A stretch of 64,000 nt of DNA, taken from Flavobacterium limnophilum. GTDB taxonomy: Bacteria; Bacteroidota; Bacteroidia; Flavobacteriales; Flavobacteriaceae. Under the pieces are notes generated by a model, which saw nothing but the letters and a program-made list of their open reading frames with translations, was not told the DNA's origin and searched no databases. A program made the position numbers and the translations under genes. The stretch spans positions 1,302,001-1,366,000 of the forward strand of contig NZ_CP114289.2 in the NCBI RefSeq assembly GCF_027111315.2, in the 5' to 3' direction. Numbering within the stretch: the stretch's first letter is position 1; every line of letters begins with the position of its first letter. Of the stretch, positions 3,602 through 55,915 are shown one piece after another.

Positions 3602-3627
3602 GATAATACATTTAATACAAGAAAGCT

Positions 3628-4602: not shown

Positions 4603-4619
4603 ATTAAATTTCAAAAAAA

Positions 4620-5012: not shown

Positions 5013-5013
5013 T

Positions 5014-5715
5014 ATGGAATGGTTAACTGAATTGGCTCAAAACAATGAAATTCCTTTATTGGCAGCCTTGGCTTTGGGATTGTTGACCGCGATTGCACCT
5101 TGTCCGTTGGCCACCAATATAACGGCAACGGCATTTATCGCCAAAACCATCAACAGTCGAAAGAAGGTTTTGTTCAGTGGCTTGCTGTACACTTTGGGCA
5201 GAATGGTTTCTTACACAGCCATTGGTGCCATTATTTATTTTGGTGCCAACACATTCCAAATTGCGAAACTTTTTCAAGGAAACGGAGAAAAATTCATTGG
5301 TTTTGTGTTGGTTATTCTCGGCTTGATAATGCTGGACATCATCAAACTCAATTTTATAAAAGGTGGGAACTGGATTGACCAACTTTCGGATAAATTCAAG
5401 ACCAAAGGCTTATTAGGCGCTTTTCTTTTGGGAGCTTTATTTGCTTTGGCATTTTGTCCTTACAGCGGCGCCTTATTTTTCGGAATGTTGGTTCCAATGA
5501 CTCTCAAGTCTGGATTGGCAATGCCTCTAGCATTTTCTGTAGGCACTGGATTGCCGGTAATTCTTTTCGCTTTCGTGATTGCGTTTAGTCTGGAAAAGCT
5601 GGGAATCTATTTCAAGGCCATCACCAAAATCGAAAAAGTAATGCGGATAGTGGCGGGAGTTACCTTTATCGTTACGGGATTGTATTACATCAATATCTAC
5701 TTTAAATTGGTTTGA
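5014..5715 (+). CDS. CcdA/DsbD-superfamily permease (ArsG-type aromatic arsenical efflux family)
   Basis: A 233-residue membrane protein with six predicted helices. The paired motifs TAIAPCPLATN (residues of about 24-34) and ALAFCPYSGALFFG (about 146-159) each hold one Cys-Pro, in the two symmetric halves typical of CcdA. In CcdA these cysteines relay electrons. Related proteins in ars loci are classed as ArsG, linked to efflux of aminoaromatic arsenicals. The coupled thioredoxin-like gene upstream fits the redox role and the ars context fits the ArsG role. I cannot decide between them from sequence. It is the last gene of the first ars transcription unit. Confidence 0.75.
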   Translation: MEWLTELAQNNEIPLLAALALGLLTAIAPCPLATNITATAFIAKTINSRKKVLFSGLLYTLGRMVSYTAIGAIIYFGANTFQIAKLFQGNGEKFIGFVLVILGLIMLDIIKLNFIKGGNWIDQLSDKFKTKGLLGAFLLGALFALAFCPYSGALFFGMLVPMTLKSGLAMPLAFSVGTGLPVILFAFVIAFSLEKLGIYFKAITKIEKVMRIVAGVTFIVTGLYYINIYFKLV

Positions 5716-5724
5716 AATAAAAAA

Positions 5725-7260: not shown

Positions 7261-7580
7261 AAAGAATTGAAGTAGATTTTTTGATGTAATTCCAGTTGTT
7301 AAACTATAAAAATAGATTTTGATTGAATGTTTTTGGGATTTTTTCAGACTTAAAAGCAATAAATCTAAGTGGTCATTTGTTTGAATGAGGTTGCTAATTT
7401 AACTTTTAAAGTCTAGTATCGCAAACTAACGGATTCTTAACTAAGTTCTTTTTTATAGGCAGCCTGCTAATGCCCAGTAATTCAATATTTAATGATTTTT
7501 GTTTCATAACCATTTTTTAACATTTAAAATTTGACTCATATTAATATGTTATCGTAATATTGCAATATAAAAATATAACG
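7261..7580 (+). promoter_or_regulatory. Intergenic region sulP/arsR2 with arsR2 promoter-operator
   Basis: This 320-bp gap holds no gene. Near its end TTTG (7530-7533), a 21-bp spacer and TAATATTG (7555-7562) form a near-consensus promoter for arsR2. A 12-bp perfect palindrome ATATTGCAATAT (7557-7568) overlaps the -7 box and is the likely ArsR2 operator. The sequence differs from the arsR1 operator. The part nearest sulP must contain the sulP promoter, but I could not place it. Confidence 0.55.
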
Positions 7581-7913
7581 ATGGGAGCATCCAAAACAGA
7601 ACAATTTACAAACCAACAAAATGAATTGGCGGTTCTAGCCAAAGCATTGGGACATCCAGCTCGAATTGCCATTATCGAATACTTGTTAAAAGTGGATAGC
7701 TGTATTTGTGGCGATATCGTAAACGAATTGCCTTTGGCGCAACCCACGGTTTCGCAGCATTTAAAGGAACTCAAAAATGCGGGACTAATCAAGGGAAACT
7801 TCGAAGGTGCATCTATTTGTTATTGCATAGATGAAGTGGGATTCGAAAAAATAAAAGGATTTTTTCAGGATGTTGCCCAGCATTTGGAGAAAACTAAAAA
7901 CCAATGTTGTTAA
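7581..7913 (+). CDS. arsR: ArsR-family metalloregulatory repressor (ArsR2)
   Basis: A 110-residue winged-helix repressor beginning MGASKTEQF. The frame is open seven codons further up, but the upstream ATG lies in the operator. The domain start [18 protein letters not shown] is shared with ArsR1. The metal site reads SCICGDI, the CxC arrangement of classical arsenite sensors, and the recognition helix is [12 protein letters not shown]. The protein ends in NQCC, an additional vicinal pair. Typical three-coordinate As(III) sensors use two or three such thiols. It leads the operon arsR2, DUF6428, arsC, acr3, all co-directional. Confidence 0.92.
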
Positions 7914-7930
7914 TTTAAATTTGAAATAAA

Positions 7931-8401
7931 ATGAAACTATCACAAGCAAAAAACATTTTGAAATCGGTAGAAGCGGTGAACTTCCTTTTGCCTGACGGGA
8001 CATCGGTGCCGGAACATTTTCACGTAACCGAAGTGGGGTTGATCACCAAAAACTTCATAGACTGTGGTGGAACGGTACGCAAAGAAACAGTAGTAAACTT
8101 CCAATTATGGAATGCCAACGATTTAGAACACCGTTTGAAACCCCAAAAATTACTCAACATCATCGAATTGTCCGAAAAAGTTTTGGGCATCGAGGATTTC
8201 GAAATAGAAGTGGAATACCAAGCACAAACCATTGGTAAATACGATTTGGATTTCAACGGAAAAGATTTTGTTTTGGTCAACAAACAAACCGCTTGTTTAG
8301 CCCAAGACCAATGCGGGATTCCTTCCGAGAAACCAAAAGTGAAATTATCCGATATTAAAATCGAACAAAGTTGCTGCACTCCTGGAGGAAGCTGCTGCTA
8401 A
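7931..8401 (+). CDS. DUF6428-family arsenic-cluster protein with Cys-Cys tails
   Basis: A 156-residue cytoplasmic protein with no signal peptide or membrane segment. The body (FLLPDGTSVPEHFHVTEVG, then DCGGTVRKE) matches the small family now called DUF6428, which I know from Bacteroidota arsenic loci; its function is unassigned. The C-terminus reads QSCC then TPGGSCC, two vicinal cysteine pairs, preceded by single cysteines in TACLAQDQCG. The tail resembles that of the rhodanese at 3146. It starts 17 bp after arsR2. An arsenite-binding metallochaperone role, as ArsD has elsewhere, is an inference from these cysteines and the setting. Confidence 0.78.
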   Translation: MKLSQAKNILKSVEAVNFLLPDGTSVPEHFHVTEVGLITKNFIDCGGTVRKETVVNFQLWNANDLEHRLKPQKLLNIIELSEKVLGIEDFEIEVEYQAQTIGKYDLDFNGKDFVLVNKQTACLAQDQCGIPSEKPKVKLSDIKIEQSCCTPGGSCC

Positions 8402-8406
8402 TCAAA

Positions 8407-8510
8407 TTAAACACATAGAAACATGGAGTTTGATATTTACAGCTATGATTCACTATTGCAAAGTGAAACGTCTTTTAAAGTTTACACAAACTAAGTTTCT
8501 ATGTGTTTAA
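8407..8510. repeat. 16-bp perfect inverted repeat between DUF6428 and arsC
   Basis: TTAAACACATAGAAAC at 8407-8422 is repeated in inverse at 8495-8510, with 72 bp between. A third, direct partial copy TTAAACACATA lies at 8527-8537, just before the arsC ATG. The arms resemble a palindromic intergenic element that I associate with flavobacterial genomes. It could form a long hairpin in the arsR2-operon mRNA. Confidence 0.75.
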
Positions 8511-8549
8511 AACAATATAAATTGAGTTAAACACATACATAAATTAAAA

Positions 8550-9182
8550 ATGACATCAACCAAAACCAACCTGTTTCCAGAAATTGAAAATCTAATTGCC
8601 ACTTTAAACTTCGAAAGCATTTCCGAAGAACGTAAAATCATTTTGCAACCTCTTGTAGATTTTATACAAGGAAAAGCCAGCAACAATCAAGAAATTCGCT
8701 TGAACCTGATTTGTACCCACAATTCCAGAAGAAGTCATTTGTCGCAAGTATGGGCGCAAACGGCGGCAGCGCATTACAACATCAAAAACGTGTTTTGTTA
8801 TTCGGGTGGGACAGAAGCTACGGCAATGTTCCCGATGGCGGCCAAAACATTGGCCAAACAAGGCTTCCAAATTAAGACCATTGCCGAAGGAAACAACCCG
8901 GTTTATGCCATAAAATATAATTCAAACGCACACCCAATTATAGGTTTCTCCAAAACTTTTGACGACGATTTCAATCCACAAAGCGAATTTGCAGCGATTA
9001 TGACTTGTTCATCAGCCGACCAAGGTTGCCCGTTTATTGCCGGTGCCGAAGTGCGAATTCCAATAACTTTTGAAGACCCAAAAGCATTTGACAACACGCC
9101 ACAACAAGCCGAAAAATACGAGGAAAGAAGCCTGCAAATTGCCACCGAAATGTTCTATGTATTCTCCCAAATCAAACAATAA
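8550..9182 (+). CDS. arsC: Arsenate reductase, low-molecular-weight phosphatase type
   Basis: A 210-residue cytoplasmic enzyme that reduces arsenate to arsenite using thioredoxin. The phosphatase-type P-loop is CTHNSRRSH (C-x5-R), carrying the nucleophilic cysteine near residue 51. A second pair occurs in [11 protein letters not shown], with two cysteines separated by six residues. That is the same spacing as Cys82 and Cys89 of the plasmid pI258 ArsC relay, so the triple-cysteine mechanism should hold. The protein is longer than the 131-residue staphylococcal form because of an N-terminal extension of about 40 residues. It ends two bases before acr3. Confidence 0.9.
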
Positions 9183-9184
9183 AT

Positions 9185-10252
9185 ATGGCAGCAAATAATT
9201 GTGCACCAGTTGTGGAAAGAAAGAAATTAAGCTTTCTCGACAGCTACCTTACCCTTTGGATTTTCATGGCAATGGCTCTGGGAGTTTTGATTGGCTATTT
9301 CATTCCTTCGAGTGGTAATTTCATCAATTCCTTTTCGAGTGGAACTACTAATATTCCGTTGGCAATCGGCTTGATATTAATGATGTATCCGCCTTTGGCT
9401 AAAGTAAAATACGAACAAATGGGAGAGGTGTTCAAGAACACCAAAGTCCTCGGTGCTTCCCTGTTTTTGAACTGGATTGTGGGACCAATTCTGATGTTTT
9501 TCTTGGCATTGTTGTTATTGAACGGTTACCCAGAATACATGATTGGCGTAATCCTGATTGGTTTGGCGCGTTGCATTGCGATGGTAGTCGTTTGGAACGA
9601 TTTAGCCGACGGAAACCGGGAATACGCTGCGGGATTAATAGCCCTAAACAGTATTTTCCAAGTGCTGCTCTACAGCGTTTATGCCTATGTTTTCATCACG
9701 ATTTTACCGCCTTATTTTGGCTATACAGGTTTTGAAGTCAACATCAGCATTGGGCAAATTGCCGAAAGTGTGGGGATTTATTTGGGAATTCCATTTGCAT
9801 TGGGAATTATCAGCCGTTATGCGCTAATTGCTCTTAAAGGTTTGGAATGGTTTGAAACCAAATATGTTCCTTTTATTTCTCCTATAACACTAATCTCGTT
9901 ATTGTTTACGATTGTTCTAATGTTCAGTTTGAAAGGCGAATTAATCGTCCAAATTCCTATTGATGTGTTGAGAATTGCGCTTCCATTGGTCATTTATTTT
10001 GCCATAATGTTCATCATCAGTTTCTTTATCGGGAAATATTTTGGTGCCGATTATTCGAAAGCCACGGCCATTGCTTTTACGGCAACAGGAAACAACTTCG
10101 AATTGGCGATTGCCGTTGCCATTGGTGTTTTTGGCATCAACAGCGGTCAGGCTTTTGCGGGCGTCATTGGTCCCTTGGTGGAAGTTCCAGCCTTGATTGC
10201 CTTGGTAAATGTGGCCTTTTGGTTCAGAAAAAAATACTTTATAAAGGAATAA
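9185..10252 (+). CDS. arsB: ACR3-family arsenite efflux transporter
   Basis: A 355-residue membrane protein with about ten helices, the usual length for ACR3. The family signature [12 protein letters not shown] and the helix-4 segment [18 protein letters not shown] are present; the conserved cysteine there is needed for As(OH)3 transport in studied members. A second conserved block is [20 protein letters not shown]. It exports arsenite using the proton motive force. It follows arsC by 2 bp, so reduction and export are co-expressed under ArsR2. It is the last gene of the ars island. Confidence 0.95.
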
Positions 10253-26321: not shown

Positions 26322-26347
26322 TACATTTCTGAATATATGATGAATTT

Positions 26348-26378
26348 AAAAAGCTTTACTTCGGTAAGGCTTTTTTTT
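26348..26378 (+). terminator. Terminator with TTCG tetraloop
   Basis: AAAAAGCTTTAC, loop TTCG, GTAAGGCTTTTT and further Ts: a complete 12-bp stem with one G-T pair, 26 bp after the GIY-YIG-like gene. Confidence 0.88.
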
Positions 26379-26412
26379 GTAAGAAAATCGTCTATAAACA
26401 ATTCCTTTTTTA

Positions 26413-26420
26413 TATATTTG
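26413..26420 (+). promoter_or_regulatory. -7 box of the first LRR gene
   Basis: TATATTTG matches TANNTTTG, 18 bp before the chosen ATG 26439. No TTTG is found at the standard distance. Confidence 0.5.
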
Positions 26421-26438
26421 ATTACTCAAATTTATAAA

Positions 26439-28982
26439 ATGAAAAAACTATACTTTTTACTTGTTGGAATTTGCTTTTTTAATGTTGTAAATTCCCAGAT
26501 TATTAATTTTCCTGATGTGAATTTTAAATCAATGTTGTTAGAGTCAAATTCAGTAAATTTTATTGCAAAAGATGAGAATGGAAATAATATTACTATTGAT
26601 TTGAATTTGAACCGTGAAATTGAAGTTAGTGAAGCTTTGAATGTTTACCAAATTACTATTCTAAGAAACACTAATCGTCCTTATTTGGTTTCCCTTGCTG
26701 GTATTGAAAATTTTACCAATCTAAGGAAGATAATGTGTGTAGAACAACATTTATCTCAGGTTGATTGTAGTCAATTGATTAATTTAGAAGAAATTGATTT
26801 CAGTTATAACCAATTGGTTAATATTAATTTAACGGGTTTAATACATTTGAAAAAGATTAAATGTTACGGTAATTTATTAACTTCTTTAAACACGACTGAT
26901 TTAGTAAGTTTAGAATATTTAGATTGTAGTAGCAATAAGATTCCGAGTATCAATGTTTCAACTTGCTTAAATCTTCAAAAATTATATTGCTTATATAATA
27001 ATTTAAGTAGTTTAAATGTTGCGGGATTGAGTCATCTTACAGAAATTAATTGTGAAGACAATCATTTAACCACGTTGAACTTATCAGGTTTGTTAAGCCT
27101 AATTGATTTTAGTTGTAGAAGAAACCAACTGACAAGTTTAAATCTTCCAGATTCCAATAATTTGAAGGTTTTGTTTTGTGGCGGTAATTTGCTAACCACA
27201 TTCAATCTACCCAATTTAACTTTGTTAACTAATATAGATTGCAGTTATAATTTATTGACTTCAATTAATCTTACGAATCAGATAAATTTGGTTTCATTAT
27301 ACTGTAATAATAATTCGTTGACTCAACTAGATGTTTCCCATACTAATTTATCCGAGTTATATTGTGAAGATAATAATATTAAAAGCATTGATATTTCAAA
27401 CTGCAGTAATATGTTCCGTTTTACATGTAGTAATAATCCAAATTTGACTTATCTAAATTTGAAAAATGGAAATGGAACCAATTATAATTATTATATGAAT
27501 AAAATTCCAAAGCTCACTTATGTTTGTGTCGATGAGGAAGAATATAATGATATTTACTATAGGATATATTATTATTCAAGCAGTTCAAAATTTGAAATAA
27601 ACTCCTATTGTTCATTTGTTCCAGGAGGGGCTTATTATACTATTCAAGGAAATACTAAACTTGATACAAATAACAATGGTTATGATAATTCTGATGACAT
27701 TTACCCAAATTTAAATTTCAGCATTACCGATGGAATTAATAAAGGAAATTTCATTTCAGATTCTTCAGGAAATTATTCCATTCCAGTGCAAGCAGGAGCT
27801 CATACCATAACTCCAAATATAGAAAACCCTAATTATTTTACCGTTTCGCCATCATCAGTAAGTGTTACTTTTCCAACGCAAACCAGTCCGTTTATTCAAA
27901 ATTTTTGCATCGCTCCAAAAGGCGTTCATAATGATTTGGAAGTAACTATTTTGCCCACCATTCCGGCAAGACCGGGATTTGATGCGACTTATAAAATTAT
28001 TTATAAAAACAAAGGAAATCATACGCAATCAGGATCTGTGAATCTAAGTTTTAATGATGCTGTTTTGGATTTGGTTTCCGCAATTCCAACAACAAATAAT
28101 CAAGTTATTGATAAATTGACGTGGAATTATACAAATTTAAAACCTCTAGAAAGCCGCGAAATTACAGTAACACTTAACGTGAATTCTCCAATGGAAACTC
28201 CTGCCGTGAATATTGGCGACCGTTTGAGTTTTAACGCTTTGATTAATCCTGTAACAGGCGACGAAAAACCAGTTGATAATTCCTCGGCTTTGCGCCATAG
28301 TGTGGTAGGTTCCTTTGATCCTAATGATAAAACCTGTCTAGAAGGTGATATTATTACGCCAGATTTGATTGGAGAATATGTCAATTATTTAATCCGTTTT
28401 GAGAATACAGGAACCTATCCCGCCCAAAATATTGTTGTAAAAGACTTAATTGATTTGACCAAATTTGATATTTCGACTTTAGTTCCAACTAAAGCCAGTC
28501 ACGATTTTGTTACCAAAATATCCGATGGCAACAAAGTAGAATTTATCTTCGAAAACATCAATCTTCCTTTTGATAATGCTACAAATGACGGTTACATAGC
28601 TTTTAAAATCAAAACCTTGCCAACGCTTGTTGTGGGAGATTCATTTGAAAATGAAGCCAATATCTTTTTTGATTATAATTTCCCCGTGTTGACCAATAAA
28701 GCCAAATCTACGTTCAAGAGTTTAGGAACACCAGATTTTGAATTTTCCGATTATTTCAGTCTGTATCCAAATCCTGCAATTGATACTTTAAACATTGGAA
28801 CGAAAAGTTTAATTGAAGTAGAATCTATGGCAGTTTATGATATTTTGGGACAATTGGTTATTGCTATTCCTGATGCGGCAACTGTTTCAAATATTGATGT
28901 TTCTATACTGACTTCCGGAAATTACTTCCTAAAAATGAATACCAATAAAGGAACTTCGAATGTGAAGTTTATTAAGAAATAA
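26439..28982 (+). CDS. Leucine-rich-repeat protein with T9SS type A sorting domain (LRR-1)
   Basis: An 847-residue secreted protein starting MKKLYFLLVG; the longer frame passes through the terminator and promoter. It has a signal peptide, then about twelve LRR units (residues of about 70-330, pattern LxxLxCSxNxLTSLNLT). Next comes a beta-sandwich segment (YYTIQGNTKLDTNNNGYDN) resembling SdrD-B domains. A conserved module PNDKTCLEGDIITPDLIGEY to FFDYNFPVLTNKAKSTF follows, which I recall as DUF7619. It ends with the sorting domain (YPNPAIDTLNI to KFIKK). It should be exported by the type IX system and surface-anchored; ligand binding is inferred from the LRRs. Confidence 0.88.
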   Translation: MKKLYFLLVGICFFNVVNSQIINFPDVNFKSMLLESNSVNFIAKDENGNNITIDLNLNREIEVSEALNVYQITILRNTNRPYLVSLAGIENFTNLRKIMCVEQHLSQVDCSQLINLEEIDFSYNQLVNINLTGLIHLKKIKCYGNLLTSLNTTDLVSLEYLDCSSNKIPSINVSTCLNLQKLYCLYNNLSSLNVAGLSHLTEINCEDNHLTTLNLSGLLSLIDFSCRRNQLTSLNLPDSNNLKVLFCGGNLLTTFNLPNLTLLTNIDCSYNLLTSINLTNQINLVSLYCNNNSLTQLDVSHTNLSELYCEDNNIKSIDISNCSNMFRFTCSNNPNLTYLNLKNGNGTNYNYYMNKIPKLTYVCVDEEEYNDIYYRIYYYSSSSKFEINSYCSFVPGGAYYTIQGNTKLDTNNNGYDNSDDIYPNLNFSITDGINKGNFISDSSGNYSIPVQAGAHTITPNIENPNYFTVSPSSVSVTFPTQTSPFIQNFCIAPKGVHNDLEVTILPTIPARPGFDATYKIIYKNKGNHTQSGSVNLSFNDAVLDLVSAIPTTNNQVIDKLTWNYTNLKPLESREITVTLNVNSPMETPAVNIGDRLSFNALINPVTGDEKPVDNSSALRHSVVGSFDPNDKTCLEGDIITPDLIGEYVNYLIRFENTGTYPAQNIVVKDLIDLTKFDISTLVPTKASHDFVTKISDGNKVEFIFENINLPFDNATNDGYIAFKIKTLPTLVVGDSFENEANIFFDYNFPVLTNKAKSTFKSLGTPDFEFSDYFSLYPNPAIDTLNIGTKSLIEVESMAVYDILGQLVIAIPDAATVSNIDVSILTSGNYFLKMNTNKGTSNVKFIKK

Positions 28983-32327: not shown

Positions 32328-34940
32328 ATGAAGAAGTATTATTTTTTGCTACTTATCTGTTTTTCATTGACACAAACGAGTGCTCAAATTGTTAATTTTC
32401 CAGATGCTAATTTTAAAAAGAAACTATTAGAAGCGGGTGTTACAAACACTATTGCAAAAGATTTAAACAATAATTACTGCAAAATAGATGTAAATAATGA
32501 TAAAGAAATACAAATAACAGAAGCTGAAAATATAAGTTGGTTAACCTTGGGTAATTCTCTAATTTCTGACTTAGTAGGAATAGAAAACTTTACACAATTA
32601 AACTATCTGGATTTGAGTAATCAAGGTGCTGCTGTGTATAATAATATAAAATCTCTAAATATTAGCTCACTCACCAAACTTGAATATTTAAATTGCAAAT
32701 CAAATAGTCTAAAAACTTTAGATTTTACAGCTTGTAAAGATCTTAAATACTTAAACTGTAGCAATAATAATATTGGTTCTTTAGATTTAAGAGGCTTTAC
32801 AAAATTAGAAAATATCGAATCTGATAGCGCTTATTTAACTTTTTTGAATGTAGATGGATTAGTAAGTTTAAAGACATTATTGGCGAGTGGTAATCAATTC
32901 ACAACTTTAGATTTAACTACTTGTAAAAATTTAGAAGAGGTCGTTATGCATAGTGGAGGATTGATAACTCTGGATGCAAGTGGTTTAGCAAAACTCAAAA
33001 AAATGAATGTTTATAATAATAAATTAACATCATTAAAATTGACTGGCTGTACAAGTTTATCCCATTTAGACGCATGGATTAATAAATTAACTACATTAGA
33101 CGCTTCAGATTTAAAAAGTCTCACATATTTAGATGTAAATTACAATGAATTACAAACTCTTAATATTCAAAATTCAAACAGTTTAGAAAATATAAGTTGT
33201 AATAATAATAAATTAGAAGTTTTAGATGTAAATGAATTTACTAATCTCAAAAGCCTGGCATGTTCTTACAATAAATTAACTTCTATAGAAGTCGATAAAT
33301 TAAAGAAACTTGAATGGCTTATAATTAGTTTTAATCAAATAGAAACTTTAGATATTAGCTCATGTCCTTTATTGTCAAGTTTACATCTTAATAATAACAA
33401 TCTAAAATTTGTTAATATAAAAAACGGAATCAAGAAATTAAATTATCAATATTATGCCAATGATAATTTAAAATATATTTGTTGTGATGAGGAAGAAATC
33501 GATTATTTATTTCCAAATTATCCAGTACAATTTGGTATCCCATATTCTTTTTCTTTAAATACATATTGTTCATTTACACCTGGAGGCATCTATTACACAA
33601 TTAAAGGAGTAAGTACTTTTGACAATGATAATAATGGTTGTAATTCTAATGATTCAAAATATGCTAATTTAAATTTTTCAATTACAAACGGTACACAAAA
33701 AGGTAATTTCATATCTGATGCTTCAGGAAATTATACTATTCCTGTTGGTGAAGGAACTCATACCATTACTCCAATTTTAGAGAATCCCAATTATTTCACA
33801 GTTTCTCCATCTTCAATAAGTGTAACTTTTCCAACTCAAACCAGTCCGTTTATTCAAAATTTTTGCATTACTCCAAATGGTATTCATAATGATTTAGAAG
33901 TAACTCTTTTACCCAACATTCCAGCAAGACCAGGATTTGATGCCTCATATGAAATTGTTTATAAAAACAAAGGAAATCAAGTTCAATCAGGCTCAGTGAT
34001 TTTGAACTTTAACGATGCTGTCTTGGATTATGTTTCGGCAATTCCTGTAATTAACAATCAAGTAACTGATAAATTGACTTGGGATTATATCAATTTGCAA
34101 CCACTTGAAACTCGTAAAATAACAGTTACACTAAATGTCAATTCTCCAATGGAAACTCCTGCAGTTAATATTGGCGACCGTTTGAGTTTTAATGCTTTGA
34201 TAAATCCTGTCTCTAGTGATGAAAAACCCGTTGACAATTCCTCGGCTTTGCGCCAAAGTGTAGTAGGTTCATTTGATCCTAATGATAAAACCTGTTTAGA
34301 AGGCGATGTTATTACGCCAGATTTGATTGGCGAGTATGTTCATTATTTGATCCGTTTTGAGAATACAGGAACCTATCCCGCCCAGAATATTGTCGTAAAA
34401 GACTTGATAGATTTGTCTAAATTTGATATTTCAACTTTGGTTCCAACCAAAGCGAGCCATTCGTTTGTGACCAAAATATCCAATGGAAACAAAGTAGAAT
34501 TTATCTTCGAAAATATTAACCTTCCCTTTGAAGATGCAATGAATGATGGTTTTATCGCCTTTAAAATAAAAACCTTGCCAACGCTTGTTGTTGGAGATTC
34601 GTTTGAAAACGAGGCCAATATTTATTTTGATTATAATTTTCCTGTACTGACCAATAAAGCTAAATCTACCTTCAAGACTTTGGGGACACCAGATTTTGAA
34701 TTTAGAGATTATTTTAGTGTGTATCCTAATCCAGTAAATGATGTTTTAAACATTGGATATAAAAGCGCAATAGAAGTTAAGTCCATAGCAGTTTACAATA
34801 TTTTAGGACAAATAGTTATTGCTGTTCCGAATGTGTCAACTATTTCAAATATTGATGTTTCTAAATTGGTTGCTGGAAATTATTTCTTAAAAATGAATAC
34901 TAATAAAGGATCTTCGACTGAGATGTTTATCAAACAATGA
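32328..34940 (+). CDS. Leucine-rich-repeat protein with T9SS type A sorting domain (LRR-2)
   Basis: An 870-residue paralogue of LRR-1 with the same architecture: signal peptide (MKKYYFLLLICFSLTQ), LRR units at about 65-360, SdrD-B-like segment (TFDNDNNGCNSND), the DUF7619-like module and a type A CTD (YPNPVNDVLNI to MFIKQ). The C-terminal half is nearly identical to LRR-1 in protein and strongly similar in DNA, whereas the LRR halves differ in number and sequence. This pattern suits duplication with diversification of the ligand-binding half and conservation or gene conversion of the export half. Secretion by the type IX system is expected. Confidence 0.88.
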   Translation: MKKYYFLLLICFSLTQTSAQIVNFPDANFKKKLLEAGVTNTIAKDLNNNYCKIDVNNDKEIQITEAENISWLTLGNSLISDLVGIENFTQLNYLDLSNQGAAVYNNIKSLNISSLTKLEYLNCKSNSLKTLDFTACKDLKYLNCSNNNIGSLDLRGFTKLENIESDSAYLTFLNVDGLVSLKTLLASGNQFTTLDLTTCKNLEEVVMHSGGLITLDASGLAKLKKMNVYNNKLTSLKLTGCTSLSHLDAWINKLTTLDASDLKSLTYLDVNYNELQTLNIQNSNSLENISCNNNKLEVLDVNEFTNLKSLACSYNKLTSIEVDKLKKLEWLIISFNQIETLDISSCPLLSSLHLNNNNLKFVNIKNGIKKLNYQYYANDNLKYICCDEEEIDYLFPNYPVQFGIPYSFSLNTYCSFTPGGIYYTIKGVSTFDNDNNGCNSNDSKYANLNFSITNGTQKGNFISDASGNYTIPVGEGTHTITPILENPNYFTVSPSSISVTFPTQTSPFIQNFCITPNGIHNDLEVTLLPNIPARPGFDASYEIVYKNKGNQVQSGSVILNFNDAVLDYVSAIPVINNQVTDKLTWDYINLQPLETRKITVTLNVNSPMETPAVNIGDRLSFNALINPVSSDEKPVDNSSALRQSVVGSFDPNDKTCLEGDVITPDLIGEYVHYLIRFENTGTYPAQNIVVKDLIDLSKFDISTLVPTKASHSFVTKISNGNKVEFIFENINLPFEDAMNDGFIAFKIKTLPTLVVGDSFENEANIYFDYNFPVLTNKAKSTFKTLGTPDFEFRDYFSVYPNPVNDVLNIGYKSAIEVKSIAVYNILGQIVIAVPNVSTISNIDVSKLVAGNYFLKMNTNKGSSTEMFIKQ

Positions 34941-40861: not shown

Positions 40862-41296
40862 ATGAAAAAAATGTTGGCTATTATGGCACTTTTTATGGCT
40901 ACATTGGGGTATTCCCAAAACTGGAAGACCAACTTTGAAGAGGCTAAATTGGAAGCTACAAAGGAAAACAAGAACATTCTTCTGGTCTTTTCGGGCTCTG
41001 ATTGGTGTGCGCCTTGCATAAAATTAGACAATGTGGTCTGGAAATCGGAAGCATTCAAAGCAGAAACCGAGAAATACTGGGTAATTTATAAAGCCGATTT
41101 TCCGAAGAAAAAAGCGAATCAATTGTCTCCGGAACTTACGGAAACCAATAAAAAATTGGCCGAAAAATACAACCGAAATGGTAGTTTTCCTTTGGTAATT
41201 CTTTTGGACAAAACGGGTAAAGTAATCGGAATGACAGGTTTCAAGAACATTTCGGCTGCTGAATATATTCAACTTATTCATTCATTGGAGAAATAA
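40862..41296 (+). CDS. Exported thioredoxin-like protein
   Basis: A 144-residue protein with a signal peptide (MKKMLAIMALFMATLGYSQ). The mature domain carries the thioredoxin-type active site WCAPC in GSDWCAPCIKLD and the cis-Pro strand GSFPLVILLDKTG. It belongs to the thioredoxin_7/DUF255-like group of periplasmic reductases. Its stop overlaps the apbE start by one base, so expression is coupled. It opens a four-gene cluster thioredoxin, ApbE, DUF4266, DUF3570; a role in keeping the DUF4266 or DUF3570 cysteines or cofactors reduced is inferred. Confidence 0.85.
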   Translation: MKKMLAIMALFMATLGYSQNWKTNFEEAKLEATKENKNILLVFSGSDWCAPCIKLDNVVWKSEAFKAETEKYWVIYKADFPKKKANQLSPELTETNKKLAEKYNRNGSFPLVILLDKTGKVIGMTGFKNISAAEYIQLIHSLEK

Positions 41297-42279
41297 TGAA
41301 AAAAACAATAACCCTATTTTTTTTATGCCTGACGTTTGTCTCTTTTGGACAAATTATGCACAAGAGAAAGTTGTCTATGTTGGGCAGTCCATTCGAAATG
41401 ACAGTTGTTGCCAAAGACACTATTCAAGGAAATGAATTTATCGATTTGGCCGTGGCCGAAGTAAAACGTGTTGAATATTTAATTTCCGATTGGATTCCGA
41501 CTACTCAAATATCGCAGGTCAATAAAAATGCGGGAATCAAACCCGTTAAAGTAGATAAAGAAGTATTTGATTTAGTAAGTCGAGCTATTAAAGTGTCACA
41601 AATTACATCGGGTGCCTTTGATATTTCGTATGCATCGATGGATAGAATTTGGAAATTCGACGGAAGTATGAAAGCAATGCCAACCGAAGAAGCCATAAAA
41701 AAATCAGTTTCCAAAATTGGATACAAAAACATTATTCTCGATCCTAAAGAACAAACAATTTTCCTTAAAAACGAAGGAATGAAGTTGGGACTTGGTGGCA
41801 TCGGACAAGGTTATATTGCCGATAAAGTCAAAGAACTGCTTTTTTCCAAAGGATGTGTTTCCGGGATTGTCAATGTTTCGGGAGACATCAACGCTTGGGG
41901 AAAGCAACCTGATGACAAGCCTTGGACTGTGGGAATCGTGAATCCATTGAACAAGAATAAAATTTTTGCCACTTTTCCGCTCGAAAACAGTGCCGTGGAA
42001 ACTTCGGGGAGCTACGAAAAATTTGTGGTTTTTAATGGCATCCGATATTCCCACATTATAGATCCACGAACAGGATATCCAGCCCAAGGCGTGGTCAGCG
42101 TTTCCGTTTTTGCAAAACAAACCGAAATTGCAGACGCATTGGCAACCGGAATTTTTGTATTGGGAATAGAAGTAGGGATAGATTTAGTAAACCAATTAAA
42201 AGGAATCGAATGTATTATTGTGGATGACAAGGGCAAAATTCATTCGTCAAAAGGAATAGACATCAAAAAATTTGAATAA
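41296..42279 (+). CDS. apbE: FAD:protein FMN transferase
   Basis: A 327-residue enzyme that transfers FMN from FAD to Ser/Thr of exported redox proteins. It has a signal peptide (ITLFFLCLTFVSFGQ). Conserved elements are GLGGIGQGYIADKV, VSGDINAWG, the HIIDPRTGYPAQ loop binding magnesium and FAD, and VFAKQTEIADALAT. No NqrC, RnfG or FMN-bind protein is encoded nearby. The target must therefore be elsewhere or be one of the two DUF proteins in the cluster. It overlaps the thioredoxin-like gene by one base. Confidence 0.95.
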   Translation: MKKTITLFFLCLTFVSFGQIMHKRKLSMLGSPFEMTVVAKDTIQGNEFIDLAVAEVKRVEYLISDWIPTTQISQVNKNAGIKPVKVDKEVFDLVSRAIKVSQITSGAFDISYASMDRIWKFDGSMKAMPTEEAIKKSVSKIGYKNIILDPKEQTIFLKNEGMKLGLGGIGQGYIADKVKELLFSKGCVSGIVNVSGDINAWGKQPDDKPWTVGIVNPLNKNKIFATFPLENSAVETSGSYEKFVVFNGIRYSHIIDPRTGYPAQGVVSVSVFAKQTEIADALATGIFVLGIEVGIDLVNQLKGIECIIVDDKGKIHSSKGIDIKKFE

Positions 42280-42281
42280 AA

Positions 42282-42494
42282 ATGATACAGAAAATAATTT
42301 TGGGATTACTGCTGGTTTTTGTGTTTCAATCCTGTAACACCGTAAAAGAATATGAAAAAGTAGCCATAAACGATGCCGACATGAAGCTTTCGGCCAGAAC
42401 TTCGGAGCGGTATGAAACTACTTTTCAGGTTTATAGAGAAGCCGCGGCTGGAGCCAATGGAGGAAAATCAGGCGGTGGTTGCGGTTGCAACTAA
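42282..42494 (+). CDS. DUF4266 small lipoprotein with Gly/Cys tail
   Basis: A 70-residue lipoprotein. The lipobox is VFQSC, with lipidation expected at Cys 18. The mature peptide is about 53 residues: a short helical part (VAINDADMKLSARTSERYE) and a tail GANGGKSGGGCGCN. Two cysteines separated by one glycine end a flexible glycine-rich arm, which suggests metal, haem or flavin coordination or a thiol relay with the neighbouring thioredoxin. DUF4266 proteins recur beside ApbE and DUF3570 to my knowledge; the function is undefined. It starts 2 bp after apbE. Confidence 0.85.
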   Translation: MIQKIILGLLLVFVFQSCNTVKEYEKVAINDADMKLSARTSERYETTFQVYREAAAGANGGKSGGGCGCN

Positions 42495-42537
42495 TTTTCA
42501 ACAAGAAAAAATTAATGCTGTTTTACACTATTTACAG

Positions 42538-43992
42538 ATGAAAATAAAAATTATGTCTCTTTTTTTACTACTTGGATTGAAAGCCTTTTCCCAAGAGGTT
42601 GCTGATGGTACCGAGTTCAAAAAAAGAGTTTTAGAAAGTACCGAAGTTGATTTTTTGCTGAGTTATTACAATCAAGATGGCTCGAAATCGGCGGTTTCAG
42701 GAGGAATTGGTTCTGAAAAATTAACAGACATTGCCACAAATATCGTGATAGCAATGCCTTTGAACGATGACTCCATTTTAACGGTTGACTTGGGGATTTC
42801 AGCTTATTCATCGGCTTCATCCAGCAATATCAATCCTTTCAATGCCACAGGAGCTTCTGGTGGTGGCGATGATGATGACCACGATGATAGAGTTGGGGCA
42901 TTTGCGGCAGCTCCAGCAACTGCGCCTTACGGCACACCTTGGCAAGCCTCGTCCGGTGCGTCAAAAAATGATGAACTGTCATCAGTAACCGTAAATTATG
43001 CACATAGCAGTGATTCCCGTAATTTTATTTGGAATGCCGATGTTTCTTTCTCTAATGAATACGATTATACTTCCGTAGGTTTTGGAGGTGGAATTGCCCA
43101 ACTTTTTAACGATAAAAACACGGAAATTAGTCTCAAAGCCAATGTTTATTTGGATCAATGGAGACCTATTTACCCAACGGAACTGCACGAATATTCTAAA
43201 TATGGATCCGATTTCTTGAATCAAGGTTATTTTGCCGGAGTGTCGGTCTTGGATCAAAACGGACAAGCAACAGGAGATTATTTGCCCTCGGCTTTTGAAA
43301 CCATAGCTTCCGTGAATAGAAATTCCTATTCCGCCTCGGTTGGATTGTCGCAAGTGCTTTCCAAAAAACTGCAGGTTTCCGTTTTCTTTGACGTTTTGCA
43401 ACAGCAAGGATTATTATCGACTCCGTATCACCGAATTTATTTTGCCGACAAAGCCAATTATTACATTGGTCAAGCGGAATATATCCCCAATTACGAAAGC
43501 GAAAGCAATGCGGGAGTTTATAAATTGGCCGATGATATCGAAAGATTGCCCGACAGTCGATTCAAATTACCCATTGGAGCCCGATTAAATTATTACATCA
43601 ACGAACGATTTGTTTTGAGGACTTATTACCGCTATTACTCGGATAATTGGGATATTCAATCACACACCGCCAATATCGAGTTGCCTATTAAAGTATCCGA
43701 TCGCTTTACCGTTTTCCCGATGTATCGTTTTTATACCCAAACCCAATCGAAATATTTTGCTCCTTACGAAACGCATTTATCAACCGAAAAATATTATACT
43801 TCTGACCCGGATTTAGCTACCTTTGACTCCAATCAATACGGTTTTGGAGTAAATTACACCGATATCTTTACGGGTGCCAAAATCTGGAAATTTGGATTGA
43901 AACACGTCGATTTCAGGTTCAATCATTATCAAAGAAGCGATAATTTAACCGCCAACATTGCTACCATTGGATTCAAGTTTGTAATGCAATAA
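42538..43992 (+). CDS. DUF3570 outer-membrane-like protein
   Basis: A 484-residue protein from ATG 42538 (MKIKIMSLF); the frame above overlaps DUF4266. After the signal peptide (cleavage near AFSQ) almost the whole chain alternates in beta-strand fashion and ends in a hydrophobic strand closing with FVMQ, as in outer-membrane barrels. Residues 100-120 hold FNATGAS followed by a metal-binding-like DDDDHDD loop, and residues 135-145 hold WQASSGASKND. These [S/T]GAS segments resemble ApbE flavinylation motifs, though without the usual preceding Asp. It ends two bases before the response regulator gene. Confidence 0.82.
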   Translation: MKIKIMSLFLLLGLKAFSQEVADGTEFKKRVLESTEVDFLLSYYNQDGSKSAVSGGIGSEKLTDIATNIVIAMPLNDDSILTVDLGISAYSSASSSNINPFNATGASGGGDDDDHDDRVGAFAAAPATAPYGTPWQASSGASKNDELSSVTVNYAHSSDSRNFIWNADVSFSNEYDYTSVGFGGGIAQLFNDKNTEISLKANVYLDQWRPIYPTELHEYSKYGSDFLNQGYFAGVSVLDQNGQATGDYLPSAFETIASVNRNSYSASVGLSQVLSKKLQVSVFFDVLQQQGLLSTPYHRIYFADKANYYIGQAEYIPNYESESNAGVYKLADDIERLPDSRFKLPIGARLNYYINERFVLRTYYRYYSDNWDIQSHTANIELPIKVSDRFTVFPMYRFYTQTQSKYFAPYETHLSTEKYYTSDPDLATFDSNQYGFGVNYTDIFTGAKIWKFGLKHVDFRFNHYQRSDNLTANIATIGFKFVMQ

Positions 43993-43994
43993 TC

Positions 43995-44663
43995 ATGAAA
44001 ATTCTAATAGTTGAAGACGAAATAGGGATTGCCAATTTTCTCAAACAAGGTTTGGAAGAGGAGGGATATTCCATTTTGGTTGCCAATGATGGAAAAACCG
44101 GGCTTGAATTGGCTTTAAGCCAAAAAGTAAACATCATTCTCCTGGATTGGATTTTGCCACAAATGACCGGAATTGAAGTTTGTCAATCCATTCGAAAAAC
44201 AGATACCACAACTCCCATTATTTTCTTGACCGCCAAAGACACCGTTCAAGAAACTATAGAAGGTCTTAAAGCGGGCGCCAATGATTACATCAAAAAACCA
44301 TTTAGTTTTGATGAATTGGTGGAACGCATAAAAATACATTTCAGGAATCAAACCGAGCCGGAAATGTTGAAATTAGGTCCAATTGATATTAATCTTGCCA
44401 AACATCTTGTTTTTGTTGACGGAAATGAAGTCAGTTTGACCCAGCGTGAATTTGAATTGCTCTGCTATTTGGTTCGCAATAAAGGAAAAGTCTGCACCCG
44501 AATCCAAATTATTGAAGATGTTTGGGACATTCATTTTGAATACGATACCGGGGTTATTGACGTTTTCATGAATGCCATTCGCAAAAAACTCAATCTCAAC
44601 AAAGAGGAAGAACTCATTAAAACCATTCGTGGAGTTGGCTATATTGCCAACGATTTAAACTAA
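43995..44663 (+). CDS. OmpR-family response regulator
   Basis: A 222-residue protein: receiver domain (about 1-118) with phospho-acceptor Asp in ILLDWILPQMTG, switch Thr/Lys in FLTAKD and IKKPF, then a winged-helix DNA-binding domain ending KTIRGVGYIAND. It is cotranscribed with the DUF3570 gene (2-bp gap) and with the sensor kinase (4-bp gap). It probably controls the redox cluster and perhaps the VIT1-like transporter, whose promoter has an 11-bp-spaced direct repeat. Confidence 0.95.
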   Translation: MKILIVEDEIGIANFLKQGLEEEGYSILVANDGKTGLELALSQKVNIILLDWILPQMTGIEVCQSIRKTDTTTPIIFLTAKDTVQETIEGLKAGANDYIKKPFSFDELVERIKIHFRNQTEPEMLKLGPIDINLAKHLVFVDGNEVSLTQREFELLCYLVRNKGKVCTRIQIIEDVWDIHFEYDTGVIDVFMNAIRKKLNLNKEEELIKTIRGVGYIANDLN

Positions 44664-44667
44664 TTAT

Positions 44668-46047
44668 ATGTTTTTATTTTCTTTCAAAAACAGAATCGCA
44701 TTGCATTACATCATAAGCACGGGTTTATTGATTTCGGTTTTGTTTTTGGTGATTTATCAAATTACGTCCTACAGTATCAACAAGCATATCAACGACGATA
44801 TTTTGGAAGAATCAAACGAATATCTTGAAGAAATAAAAATTGACTCTAATAATTCCTATTTGATTCAAGTAAAACAATGGAGAGAAAGAGACAATAATGC
44901 CGTAAAAGTCAATCCGGTTTTTGTGCAGTTTTTGGACAACAACAATAAATTAATTGATAAATCTCCCAATCTTAAAGGATTGAAGCTTCAATTGCATAAA
45001 GCGGACAAGGACAATCAATTTGTTGATTCCTATTTGAACAAAAAACCAATCAGGCAAATCCAAATTCCCCTTTTTGATAGAAACAAAAAAGTGGGATATC
45101 TTTTTGTGGCAATGTCATTGGATGAAGCCACATTAATATTGACAAATTTGCAGGATACGCTCTTGATTGCCTTTCCATTAATATTGGTCGTTCTCTTCTT
45201 GATTGCTCGTTTGATTGCCGGAAGAAGTATCAAACCCGTGACGATGATTACTGAAACTTCCAGCCGAATTACGAAAGACAATCTAAAAGAGCGTATTATT
45301 TTGCCCCAAAACAAAGACGAACTTTACGTGCTTTCCAAAACCATCAACGATTTATTGGAACGCATTGAAAATGCCGTGAAACGCGAAAAACAATTTACCT
45401 CCGATGCTTCCCACGAACTAAGAACGCCCTTGACTGTCTTAAAAGGAACACTGGAAGTCTTGGTCAGAAAGCCCAGAACCCAAGCCGAATATGAAGACAA
45501 AATTAGTTATGGCATCAACGAGGTCAATCGATTGAGCAATCTGGTGGATCAATTACTGTTGTTGGCTCGATTCGAAAACCAAATCCAAAGCTTGAAAACC
45601 GAAAAAGTCTATTTAAACGCCTTGATTTTGGATGTTTTAACACGTTATTCTGGAAAAATTAACGCTAAAAAAATCAACATAAATCATCCTTTTTCCAAAG
45701 ATTACTACGTTAAATCGGATAATTATTTAGTCTCCATCATTATAAGCAACATCATAAGCAATGCCATTAAATATTCTAATGAAACCGGTATTATTTCGAT
45801 TTTGCTTTCTCAAAAAGGAGGTGTCACGATTTGCACCATTTCTGATGAAGGAATCGGGATTCCAAAAGAAGATTTAGACAAAATTTTCAATCCTTTTTAT
45901 CGTTCGAATCCAACGCTTCATCCTGAGATAAAAGGTTCTGGACTAGGATTTTCTATTGTAAAACGACTAGCAGAACTGCTGGATATTCATTTCGAAATTC
46001 AAAGTGAAAAAGAAAAAGGAACTTCGGTAATTTTAAGGTTTCAATAG
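44668..46047 (+). CDS. Sensor histidine kinase
   Basis: A 459-residue inner-membrane kinase. The first helix (about 14-33) and second (about 165-188) flank a periplasmic sensor of roughly 130 residues without a known fold. A HAMP linker follows, then the H-box FTSDASHELRTPLTVLKG, N-box NIISNAIKYS, and ATP-binding G-boxes DEGIGIPKEDL and GSGLGFSIVKRL. The partner is the adjacent response regulator. The stimulus is unknown; envelope redox state or a metal is suggested by the neighbours. Confidence 0.95.
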   Translation: MFLFSFKNRIALHYIISTGLLISVLFLVIYQITSYSINKHINDDILEESNEYLEEIKIDSNNSYLIQVKQWRERDNNAVKVNPVFVQFLDNNNKLIDKSPNLKGLKLQLHKADKDNQFVDSYLNKKPIRQIQIPLFDRNKKVGYLFVAMSLDEATLILTNLQDTLLIAFPLILVVLFLIARLIAGRSIKPVTMITETSSRITKDNLKERIILPQNKDELYVLSKTINDLLERIENAVKREKQFTSDASHELRTPLTVLKGTLEVLVRKPRTQAEYEDKISYGINEVNRLSNLVDQLLLLARFENQIQSLKTEKVYLNALILDVLTRYSGKINAKKININHPFSKDYYVKSDNYLVSIIISNIISNAIKYSNETGIISILLSQKGGVTICTISDEGIGIPKEDLDKIFNPFYRSNPTLHPEIKGSGLGFSIVKRLAELLDIHFEIQSEKEKGTSVILRFQ

Positions 46048-46114: not shown

Positions 46115-47233
46115 ATGGATTTAAGCAAACTAAAAGGACAATTGCAAACCGAAGTTGACACAGCCTTTTTATACGAAAGCATTGCAGCCATTCAAGCAGA
46201 CGAGAATCTGGGTCGCGTTTTGCAAAGTCTGTCCGAAATAGAAAAAGGTCACGCAAAACACATTTTGGATAAAGTCAGGAAGTTCGACCCCAATCACGTA
46301 ATGCCTTTGCCTTCTTCGAGAGCAAAATTCCAACTGAAATTAGGGAAGCTCTTCGGCTACAATTCCATTATCAGCAGTTTGTCGAATGTTGAAAAACAAT
46401 TTGCCGTAAACGCCATCAAAAACAAAATCGAAAAAGGGGAAAAACCCAATGGATTTGAACACAATCATCTAAATATCATTGAAGCCGTAAACAACAATGC
46501 GGCCTTGAATGTTTCAGGCGGATTGTTGTCCAAATTTGAAAGTCGTCATAAATCTGTTGGAGGAAATGCTTTGCGTGCCGCTGTTTTAGGATCGAATGAT
46601 GGACTGGTTTCCAACATGAGTTTGGTTATGGGTGTTGCCGGAGCGGCAGTTTCCAACAACACCATTTTATTGACAGGAATTGCAGGTCTTATGGCTGGTG
46701 CCATTTCAATGGCTTTGGGCGAATGGCTTTCGGTGCAAAGTTCGAGGGAATTAAATCAACGTCAAATTGATTTGGAAACGGAAGAACTGGAAGCCTCTCC
46801 AGAAGAAGAAAAAAAAGAATTGGTCTTGCTGTACCAAGCCAAAGGAATGAACGTTGTGGAAGCCCAAAAACTAGCCGACAAAGCATTCGAAAATCCAGAC
46901 ACGGCAATAGATGCCATAATTACCGAAGAATTGGGGATAGACAAAGAAGAACTGGGAGGTTCTGCCTGGGAAGCCGCCATTGCTTCTTTCATTCTTTTTG
47001 CCATAGGAGCCATTATTCCGTTGTATCCTTTCATGATTTTGGACGGTAAAAATGCTATTTTCCTTAGTATTGCGAGCAGTATTGTGGGGCTTTTCGGCAT
47101 TGGCGCTGCCATAACATTATTGACGGGAAAGAGCATTTTGTTTTCAGGCTTTAGACAAGTGGCTTTCGGTTTGGCAGCAGCAGCCGTTACTTATGGAATT
47201 GGAACTTTGATAGGGGTTTCATTGGCGGGATAA
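46115..47233 (+). CDS. VIT1/CCC1 metal transporter with N-terminal ferritin-like domain
   Basis: A 372-residue fusion. Residues of about 1-140 form a rubrerythrin-like helical bundle with metal-ligand Glu/His pairs (TAFLYESIAAIQ, LSEIEKGHAKHI). Residues of about 150-372 are the CCC1/VIT1 transporter (RAAVLGSNDGLVSNMSLVMGVAGAA, AMALGEWLSVQSSREL, then helices in SFILFAIGAIIPLYPF). Homologues move Fe(II) or Mn(II); the ferritin-like part may sense or oxidise iron. It follows the two-component pair by 67 bp and has a promoter fitting response-regulator control. Confidence 0.9.
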   Translation: MDLSKLKGQLQTEVDTAFLYESIAAIQADENLGRVLQSLSEIEKGHAKHILDKVRKFDPNHVMPLPSSRAKFQLKLGKLFGYNSIISSLSNVEKQFAVNAIKNKIEKGEKPNGFEHNHLNIIEAVNNNAALNVSGGLLSKFESRHKSVGGNALRAAVLGSNDGLVSNMSLVMGVAGAAVSNNTILLTGIAGLMAGAISMALGEWLSVQSSRELNQRQIDLETEELEASPEEEKKELVLLYQAKGMNVVEAQKLADKAFENPDTAIDAIITEELGIDKEELGGSAWEAAIASFILFAIGAIIPLYPFMILDGKNAIFLSIASSIVGLFGIGAAITLLTGKSILFSGFRQVAFGLAAAAVTYGIGTLIGVSLAG

Positions 47234-55249: not shown

Positions 55250-55915
55250 ATGAAAAAGAAACTATTTACACATATTGTGCTTACGGTATTGTTGTTTATT
55301 TCAACACAAGCAACAACCGCACAAACTATTACAAAGAACCAAACTGGAACTCATGACGGGTATTATTATTCTTTTTGGAATCAAGGTGGTGGCGGAACTG
55401 TTGCAATGACTTTAGGACCCGATGGCAATTATAGCACCACTTGGTCTAATGCTACCAATTTTACCGCTGGAAAAGGCTGGGCCAAGGGAAGTCCAGACAG
55501 AGCTATCCACTTTTCAGGTCATTTCGACGGTGGAAAAAATGGCTATTTAGCAGTGTATGGCTGGACAAGAAATGCACTCATAGAATATTATGTTGTAGAA
55601 AACTATGGTGCTTGGACTCCTCCTGGCGGAGTTTCAAAAGGCAGCTTTACCAGTGATGGCGGAACTTATAACATTTATGAAACCACAAGAACTCAACAGC
55701 CTTCTATTGATGGGACTCAAACTTTTCAGCAATATTGGAGCGTTCGCACTACAAGAAGGTCAAGCGGAACGGTAACTTTTGCCAATCACGTAGCCGCTTG
55801 GAAGAGTAAAGGAATGATTTTAGGCAGTTCTTGGGATTACCAAATTATGGAATCCGAAGGGTATTATAGTAGCGGAAGTTCTACTATTACTGTAAGTGAA
55901 GGTTCAGCAAAATAG
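55250..55915 (+). CDS. Secreted GH11 endo-1,4-beta-xylanase
   Basis: A 221-residue protein with a signal peptide (cleavage near TTAQT) and one glycoside hydrolase family 11 domain. Family landmarks are GTHDGYYYSFWNQGGG, YGWTRNALIEYYVVENYG with the nucleophile Glu, the thumb region PSIDGTQTFQQYWSVR, NHVAAWKSKGM and the acid/base Glu in IMESEGYYSSG. It cleaves xylan chains. It has no carbohydrate-binding module and no T9SS sorting domain, so it would be periplasmic or exported otherwise. No other xylan genes, SusC/D pair or regulator adjoin it, and dispersed repeats precede it; recent acquisition is possible. Confidence 0.92.
   Translation: MKKKLFTHIVLTVLLFISTQATTAQTITKNQTGTHDGYYYSFWNQGGGGTVAMTLGPDGNYSTTWSNATNFTAGKGWAKGSPDRAIHFSGHFDGGKNGYLAVYGWTRNALIEYYVVENYGAWTPPGGVSKGSFTSDGGTYNIYETTRTQQPSIDGTQTFQQYWSVRTTRRSSGTVTFANHVAAWKSKGMILGSSWDYQIMESEGYYSSGSSTITVSEGSAK

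Follow-up and report, generated by a model that had tools for sequence, protein, structure and literature searches.

A candidate flavin-based redox relay ending in the outer membrane of Flavobacterium limnophilum

Introduction

Gene clusters that join the transferase ApbE to a protein of the DUF3570 family were described by Meheust et al. in 2021 (PMC8238504). According to that paper, clusters with DsbD typically contain ApbE together with DUF3570 (in 227 clusters), DUF4266 with CXC at its C-terminus (221) and a thioredoxin-like protein of PF13899 (183), while the four genes occur without DsbD in 316 further clusters. The DUF3570 protein of Chlorobium luteolum was flavinylated by its ApbE, and modification was abolished only when both [S/T]GA[S/T] sites were changed (PMC8238504). 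VIT1 was present in 25 clusters, and the function of the DUF3570 cluster was called uncertain (PMC8238504). The canonical ApbE motif is given as D-x-x-[S/T]-G-A-[S/T] (PMC12052999). Here we describe an operon of this kind at positions 40862-43992 of a 64,000-nucleotide stretch of the Flavobacterium limnophilum genome (contig NZ_CP114289.2, positions 1,302,001 to 1,366,000), referred to below as the window.

A preliminary description of the operon held that no known ApbE substrate was encoded nearby. This was wrong, because DUF3570 itself is a published ApbE substrate (PMC8238504). An FMN (flavin mononucleotide)-tagged DUF3570 is likewise not new, as both the cluster and the modification were published in 2021 (PMC8238504). 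In the main text of that paper, the words "efflux", "copper", "heavy metal" and "RND" were not found, and "outer membrane" is used once, about TonB receptors. Judged by titles and the starts of abstracts, no other literature on this system was evident, and DUF3570 does not appear to be treated in a 2024 flavinylation paper or its preprint (PMC11334425).

Results

The operon comprises four genes on the plus strand, in the order thioredoxin-like protein, ApbE, DUF4266 and DUF3570. The first (40862..41296; 144 residues) encodes an exported thioredoxin-like protein (Thioredoxin_7, PF13899; 44.7 bits, cut-off 27) with a WCAPC motif containing Cys49 and Cys52; its signal peptide was assigned by eye. 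It overlaps by 1 bp the gene for ApbE, a flavin adenine dinucleotide (FAD):protein FMN transferase (41296..42279; 327 residues; PF02424, 274 bits, cut-off 25.6). After a 2-bp gap follows the small lipoprotein DUF4266 (42282..42494; 70 residues; PF14086, 68 bits, above cut-off), with a probable lipobox cysteine, Cys18, assigned by eye. DUF3570, a predicted outer-membrane beta-barrel and predicted FMN carrier for ApbE, begins after a further 46 bp (42541..43992; 483 residues; PF12094, 132 bits, cut-off 25). The tight spacing and family assignments of the preliminary description thus held, with gaps of 46 bp or less and all Pfam matches above cut-off. By its gene content, the window operon is a DsbD-less example of the published DUF3570/DUF4266/ApbE/thioredoxin-like cluster.

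DUF3570 is a single-copy gene in the 4.5-Mb host genome, and the closest named relatives of its product are from Flavobacterium. Across the phylum, 118 of 395 sampled genomes had a DUF3570 match. One Bacteroidota family (L204; G372, G486) has many matches, up to nine per genome, with four in a single operon. A Flavobacterium-type operon with a DUF3570 89% identical to that of the window was observed in a record titled as a Klebsiella pneumoniae metagenome-assembled genome (L081, CALPPA020000108.1); its label or bin is probably wrong. In another locus (L094:8556-9002), the thioredoxin-like gene is broken by a stop into two same-frame pieces.

To locate the flavinylation sites, we used an alignment of 120 DUF3570 proteins, consisting of the window protein and 119 non-identical proteins from 117 loci found via DUF4266. 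Of these loci, 37 came from an evenly spread sample of the order and 80 were the top-ranking ones among 546 relatives of an alignment; three duplicates were removed, and the set is biased towards the relatives of the window. We observed a universal site, [T/S][S/A]AS, right after strand 3 of the barrel (TSAS in 81, SSAS in 32 and TAAS in 7 proteins; 120/120). In the window protein, this site 1 is SSAS at residues 90-93 (42808..42819, plus strand), and the acceptor would be Ser93. A second motif, [S/T][S/G]AS, lies downstream in 109 of the 120 proteins and is SGAS at residues 138-141 in the window (site 2; 42952..42963, plus strand). Eight of the 11 proteins that keep site 1 and lack site 2 (L107, L113, L116, L117, L121, L122, L127, L141, L143, L145 and L076) were from records titled Mucilaginibacter. 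The conserved pair by alignment is therefore SSAS 90-93 and SGAS 138-141, whereas by letter the pair is TGAS 103-106 and SGAS 138-141.

TGAS (42847..42858, plus strand) is a candidate third site, found in 20 of the 120 proteins, and was rejected as a conserved one. The preliminary description had taken TGAS as the first, key motif and missed SSAS. It had correctly reported TGAS and SGAS, although its residue numbers (104-107 and 139-142) were one too high when counted from the ATG at 42541. Two [S/T]GA[S/T] motifs in the window protein are more than shuffling would give by chance (0.07 expected; two or more in 0.18% of 5000 shuffles). Because TGAS comes in addition to sites 1 and 2, there may be three flavins on the window protein. 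The DDDDHDD stretch reported after TGAS is present. A run of at least three Asp or Glu within residues 96-150 occurred in 21 of the 120 proteins, and the acidic loop was rejected as a general functional core because it is clade-specific.

The strict [S/T]GA[S/T] pattern was absent altogether from 69 of the 120 proteins, so conservation of the motif among apbE-linked homologues failed by letter and held for [S/T][S/A]AS. Since an equivalent site is present in all 120, absence of the strict pattern does not refute flavinylation. Association of the motif with adjacent apbE is a weak test, because the loci were found via DUF4266 and nearly all have apbE; in L088, L144 and L145, site 1 was present and an ApbE match was not found in the stretch examined.

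At the first position of the site 1 7-mer, Asp was present in 80 proteins and Ser in 40. As reported before, the canonical Asp is missing from all three window 7-mers (SAYSSAS, FNATGAS and QASSGAS). We also assessed 45 further DUF3570 proteins, of which two were plasmid-borne (Vibrio and Hymenobacter) and the other 43 came from genomes that do not belong to the order, counting patterns within the first 260 residues rather than aligned columns. All had [S/T][G/S/A]A[S/T] at least once, and 44 had it with Asp at position 1, mostly as DSVSGAS or DSVTGAS. Because these 44 keep the Asp-containing form, the best reading of site 1 is a canonical motif that was eroded to SAYSSAS in the lineage of the window. 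Together with the chemistry of the C. luteolum homologue, these motifs suggest that this ApbE very probably flavinylates this DUF3570, and the earlier proposal of DUF3570 as an ApbE substrate agrees with what was shown for that homologue (PMC8238504).

We consider it very improbable that DUF4266, rather than DUF3570, is the protein modified by ApbE. In favour of it, DUF4266 is a neighbour of DUF3570 and ApbE in almost every locus. Its tail in the window (REAAAGANGGKSGGGCGCN) lacks [S/T][G/S/A]A[S/T], and DUF4266 was rejected as a flavin acceptor; DUF3570 has the motif and a proven homologue (PMC8238504).

The genome contains two ApbE genes. The second is flanked by a TonB receptor and by a protein with PepSY_TM, flavodoxin and nicotinamide adenine dinucleotide (NAD)-binding domains, with a DUF2271 protein beyond; this locus (L071:7355-15165; G000:C1, ~510-518 kb) also includes an ankyrin-repeat protein. 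DUF2271 is another ApbE substrate family in Meheust et al. (PMC8238504). FMN_bind had zero matches in the window genome. With two ApbE genes, one DUF3570, DUF2271 by the other ApbE and no FMN_bind, each ApbE thus has a published substrate family of its own adjacent to it.

We next consider where the flavins would lie. The AlphaFold model of the window DUF3570 (pLDDT, predicted local distance difference test, 85.8) has a hydrophobic N-terminal helix at residues 2-13 and 16 main strands, counted from the listed elements with short pieces set aside. Models of two divergent DUF3570 proteins, that of the window being one, gave 16-strand outer-membrane barrels with all sites in a single loop. Such models match solved barrels, with an even strand number, and thus agree with the outer-membrane location proposed earlier. 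A sequence search of the PDB with the DUF3570 alignment gave one match (E 0.2), regarded as chance. By DSSP of the window model, all three sites fall in one loop (42808..42972, plus strand) between strand 3 (residues 78-89) and strand 4 (residues 145-156). It is the second loop of the long-loop side, and the sites were on that side in both models. From the N-terminal signal peptide (assigned by eye), the even strand count and the loop lengths, we infer that this loop lies on the extracellular side; the models make it likely that the flavins are on the surface side.

The DUF4266 of the window ends in GGGCGCN (Cys67 and Cys69), as first reported. In the first set, the tail was GGCGCN in 114 of 116 open reading frames (ORFs) and AGCGCN in two; in other clades it is CGCN, CGCG or CGCAK. 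DsbD lies beside the operon elsewhere: in L203 and L204, ORFs of 616-621 residues downstream of ApbE were DsbD in 2/2 tested, and an ORF on a Vibrio plasmid (L185) that combines DsbD_TM and thioredoxin domains is of the DsbD type too. Two loci, L208 and L212, instead have a NusG_II ORF placed between DUF3570 and ApbE. Plasmid searches gave one ApbE-only match by DNA and five records by protein. The window genome encodes three proteins with DsbD_TM, all of them outside the operon, which places the operon outside the DsbD-containing subclass. Because the Cys tail of DUF4266 is conserved and DsbD stands next to the operon elsewhere, a thiol relay to the flavin is the likeliest electron supply, a view we hold with modest confidence; the order of its steps is deduced.

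The same thioredoxin-like and Cys-X-Cys partners would suit a role in oxidative folding or repair, in which the flavin takes electrons from envelope thiols in the oxidase direction and has no surface function. The position of the flavin sites on the long-loop side of the barrel in two models is a poor spot for periplasmic thiol chemistry, and we regard this role as improbable.

Downstream of the operon, an OmpR-type response regulator (43995..44663, plus strand) begins 2 bp past DUF3570 and is followed by a sensor histidine kinase (44668..46047, plus strand). The nearest families were the heavy-metal subfamilies CzcR/SilR/CopR (TIGR01387, 212 bits) and CzcS/SilS/CopS (TIGR01386, 219 bits), with both proteins below the curated cut-offs (279 and 293). 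Next is a VIT1-family Fe/Mn transporter (46115..47233, plus strand; PF01988, 229 bits at residues 153-364) and then a DUF2231 protein. The N-terminal 148 residues of VIT1 had no Pfam match and a weak sub-threshold match to the EncB family; by eye, this extension of ~150 residues looks ferritin-like. MbfA iron exporters join a ferritin-like and a VIT1 part, and by eye the window gene resembles them.

ORF clustering of neighbours in 114 loci showed a resistance-nodulation-division (RND) permease in 42, its adaptor in 42, the window kinase cluster in 35, the regulator cluster in 33, VIT1 in 33 and a P-type ATPase in 17. The permease exceeded the CusA/CzcA heavy-metal family cut-off (1159 vs 701 bits). 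It was closer to ZneA (651 bits) than to CusA (587 bits) and has a DFG...DG stretch at the position of that in ZneA. A copper pump of the CusA type was rejected, as alignment to solved CusA and ZneA favours the divalent-cation type; the CusA methionine triad and the heavy-metal efflux (HME) signature served for this typing. Among the 85 loci in which each flank spans at least 8 kb, 38 had the pump, 31 had VIT1 and 50 had either.

For a proximity control, we used the 36 DUF4266-positive genomes (38 operons) within an evenly spread sample of 196 genomes of the order, with at least 84 over-cut-off pump copies (those listed) and 26 of 27 over-cut-off VIT1 copies; a broken copy in G002, ~2 kb from its operon, was left out. 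The pump lay within 10 kb of at least 14 of the 38 operons, among the matches listed, compared to 0.44 expected. VIT1 lay within 10 kb of 15 (0.14 expected) and within 12 kb of 18 (0.17 expected); Poisson odds from these values overstate independence, as the genomes are related. VIT1 was present in 27 of the 36 DUF4266-positive genomes compared to 38 of the other 160. The pump was downstream on the same strand in 22 of 42 cases, upstream on the same strand in 16 and on the opposite strand in two and two, so a single inherited gene order does not explain its linkage. These data show that, in its order, the operon is linked to metal-transport genes (a CzcA-type pump and VIT1).

Many Flavobacterium relatives have the order thioredoxin-like protein, ApbE, DUF4266, DUF3570, response regulator, histidine kinase, pump, adaptor and VIT1. 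In the window, the gap between the kinase and VIT1 is 67 bp and the pump is absent from that place. In L096 (5810-11424), the kinase, regulator and thioredoxin are of the window type and a window-type DUF3570 is missing; they are divergent from an operon of the short type, and it looks as if one operon type was replaced by the other.

This linkage suggests a flavin barrel in metal-ion homeostasis, co-regulated with the pump and VIT1, which would act on the oxidation state of Fe, Mn or other metals at the cell surface, or else protect the envelope under metal stress. Such a role is compatible with a flavin relay in the outer membrane. It is favoured by the excess of pump and VIT1 near the operons, the varied placement of the pump, the ZneA-like character of the pump and the heavy-metal likeness of the two-component system, below cut-off as it is. 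Several observations weigh against it. No over-cut-off pump was found in the window genome (best match listed 419 bits, cut-off 701), and the pump is therefore dispensable. In 20 loci of the phylum outside the order and two plasmid loci, we found neither pump nor VIT1, and a P-type ATPase in 3 of the 22. The P-type ATPase near the operons was nearest to calcium pumps, below cut-off, and not of the heavy-metal type. Non-metal neighbours also recur in the 114 loci (a short-chain-dehydrogenase-like protein in 27, a 125-residue protein in 25 and a 675-residue protein in 23), in part because of shared synteny. The neighbourhood also says nothing on direction or substrate. Metal as acceptor or context is a tentative proposal, and we place metal-ion homeostasis somewhat short of probable.

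From the VIT1 genes in 25 clusters, Meheust et al. suggested assimilatory Fe(III) reduction feeding ferrous import (PMC8238504), and the VIT1 neighbours found here would fit. MbfA, which the window VIT1 resembles by eye, is an iron exporter (PMC4902296). The RND pump is an exporter too, and therefore suits metal overload over metal hunger. We consider the assimilatory role unlikely.

Elsewhere in the window, an arsenic-like cluster (3146-10252) contains a rhodanese, an ArsP permease, a DsbD_2-type membrane protein (5014-5715), a sulfate permease on the minus strand, a DUF6428 protein, a weak LMWPc match and an SBF-family (Acr3-like) transporter. Two similar leucine-rich-repeat proteins (26337-28982 and 32328-34940), with DUF7619, DUF11 and type IX secretion tails, flank a CHU_C protein of 1041 residues. 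A protein of 221 residues (55250-55915) matched glycosyl hydrolase family 11, the xylanase family (234 bits).

Discussion

Overall, our data point with fair probability to a redox relay that uses flavin and has its end point in the outer membrane. ApbE would attach FMN to Ser or Thr in two or three DUF3570 motifs while the chain, still unfolded, crosses the periplasm. DUF3570 would then fold into its 16-strand barrel, with the second long-side loop holding the flavins on the cell surface or close to it. Electrons would come from the periplasmic thiol system, passing from an inner-membrane DsbD/CcdA-type protein to the thioredoxin-like protein, then probably to the C-terminal Cys-Gly-Cys of DUF4266 and on to FMN; both the order and the direction of flow are part of the proposal. 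An envelope electron-transfer role was also proposed in the preliminary description and is suggested in PMC8238504 as well.

Four points weigh against this relay. The window 7-mers all lack Asp, and site 1 has Ser in place of Gly. This weighs less because, according to a review (PMC12052999), a fumarate reductase showed only minor effects of an Asp-to-Ala change and kept about half the yield with Gly-to-Ala. In the site loop, pLDDT fell below 50 at residues 102-127 and 138-141, so the flavins could instead lie within the barrel or face the periplasm. The nearest DsbD_TM protein is 35 kb away (5014-5715), within the arsenic-like cluster. The DUF3570 biochemistry in PMC8238504 appears to cover the C. 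luteolum protein only.

For the terminal electron acceptor, our best guess would be a metal outside the cell, for instance Fe(III). Metal reduction was not borne out in the form first claimed, as what we observed is a link of gene neighbourhood. A fuller model would be a haem-free outlet, in which a surface loop with two or three covalent FMNs is reduced across the membrane by the glycine-rich Cys-Gly-Cys tail of the periplasmic lipoprotein DUF4266, which perhaps extends into the barrel lumen, as part of a Flavobacteriales metal-export and metal-redox programme with the CzcA-type pump and VIT1. We regard this model as speculative and rather doubtful. If the surface placement is true, there is in Gram-negative bacteria an electron outlet that has its cofactor on the barrel and works without a cytochrome. 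Direct tests are now possible of which Ser bears FMN, on which side of the membrane it lies and which metal is relevant.

The window operon shares with the clusters of Meheust et al. ApbE, DUF3570, DUF4266 with its CXC tail, a PF13899 protein and two [S/T]GA[S/T]-type sites, and like 316 of those clusters it has no DsbD (PMC8238504). Its additional features are TGAS as a third site, an insert of acidic residues, a two-component system and VIT1. The universal site, the putative surface loop and the metal-transport linkage appear to go further than PMC8238504. The second ApbE locus of the genome resembles the PepSY-like iron-assimilation layout of the same paper. Like the window operon, this DUF2271/PepSY/TonB cluster pairs ApbE with its own envelope substrate family; it differs in having a small periplasmic domain as its substrate and the PepSY_TM/flavodoxin/NAD-binding protein as its membrane partner. 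In porin-cytochrome conduits of the MtrCAB type, an outer-membrane barrel is associated with redox cofactors. The window system may work alike, but it would carry its flavin on the barrel itself and has no haem protein in the four-gene operon, and so is not a member of that group.

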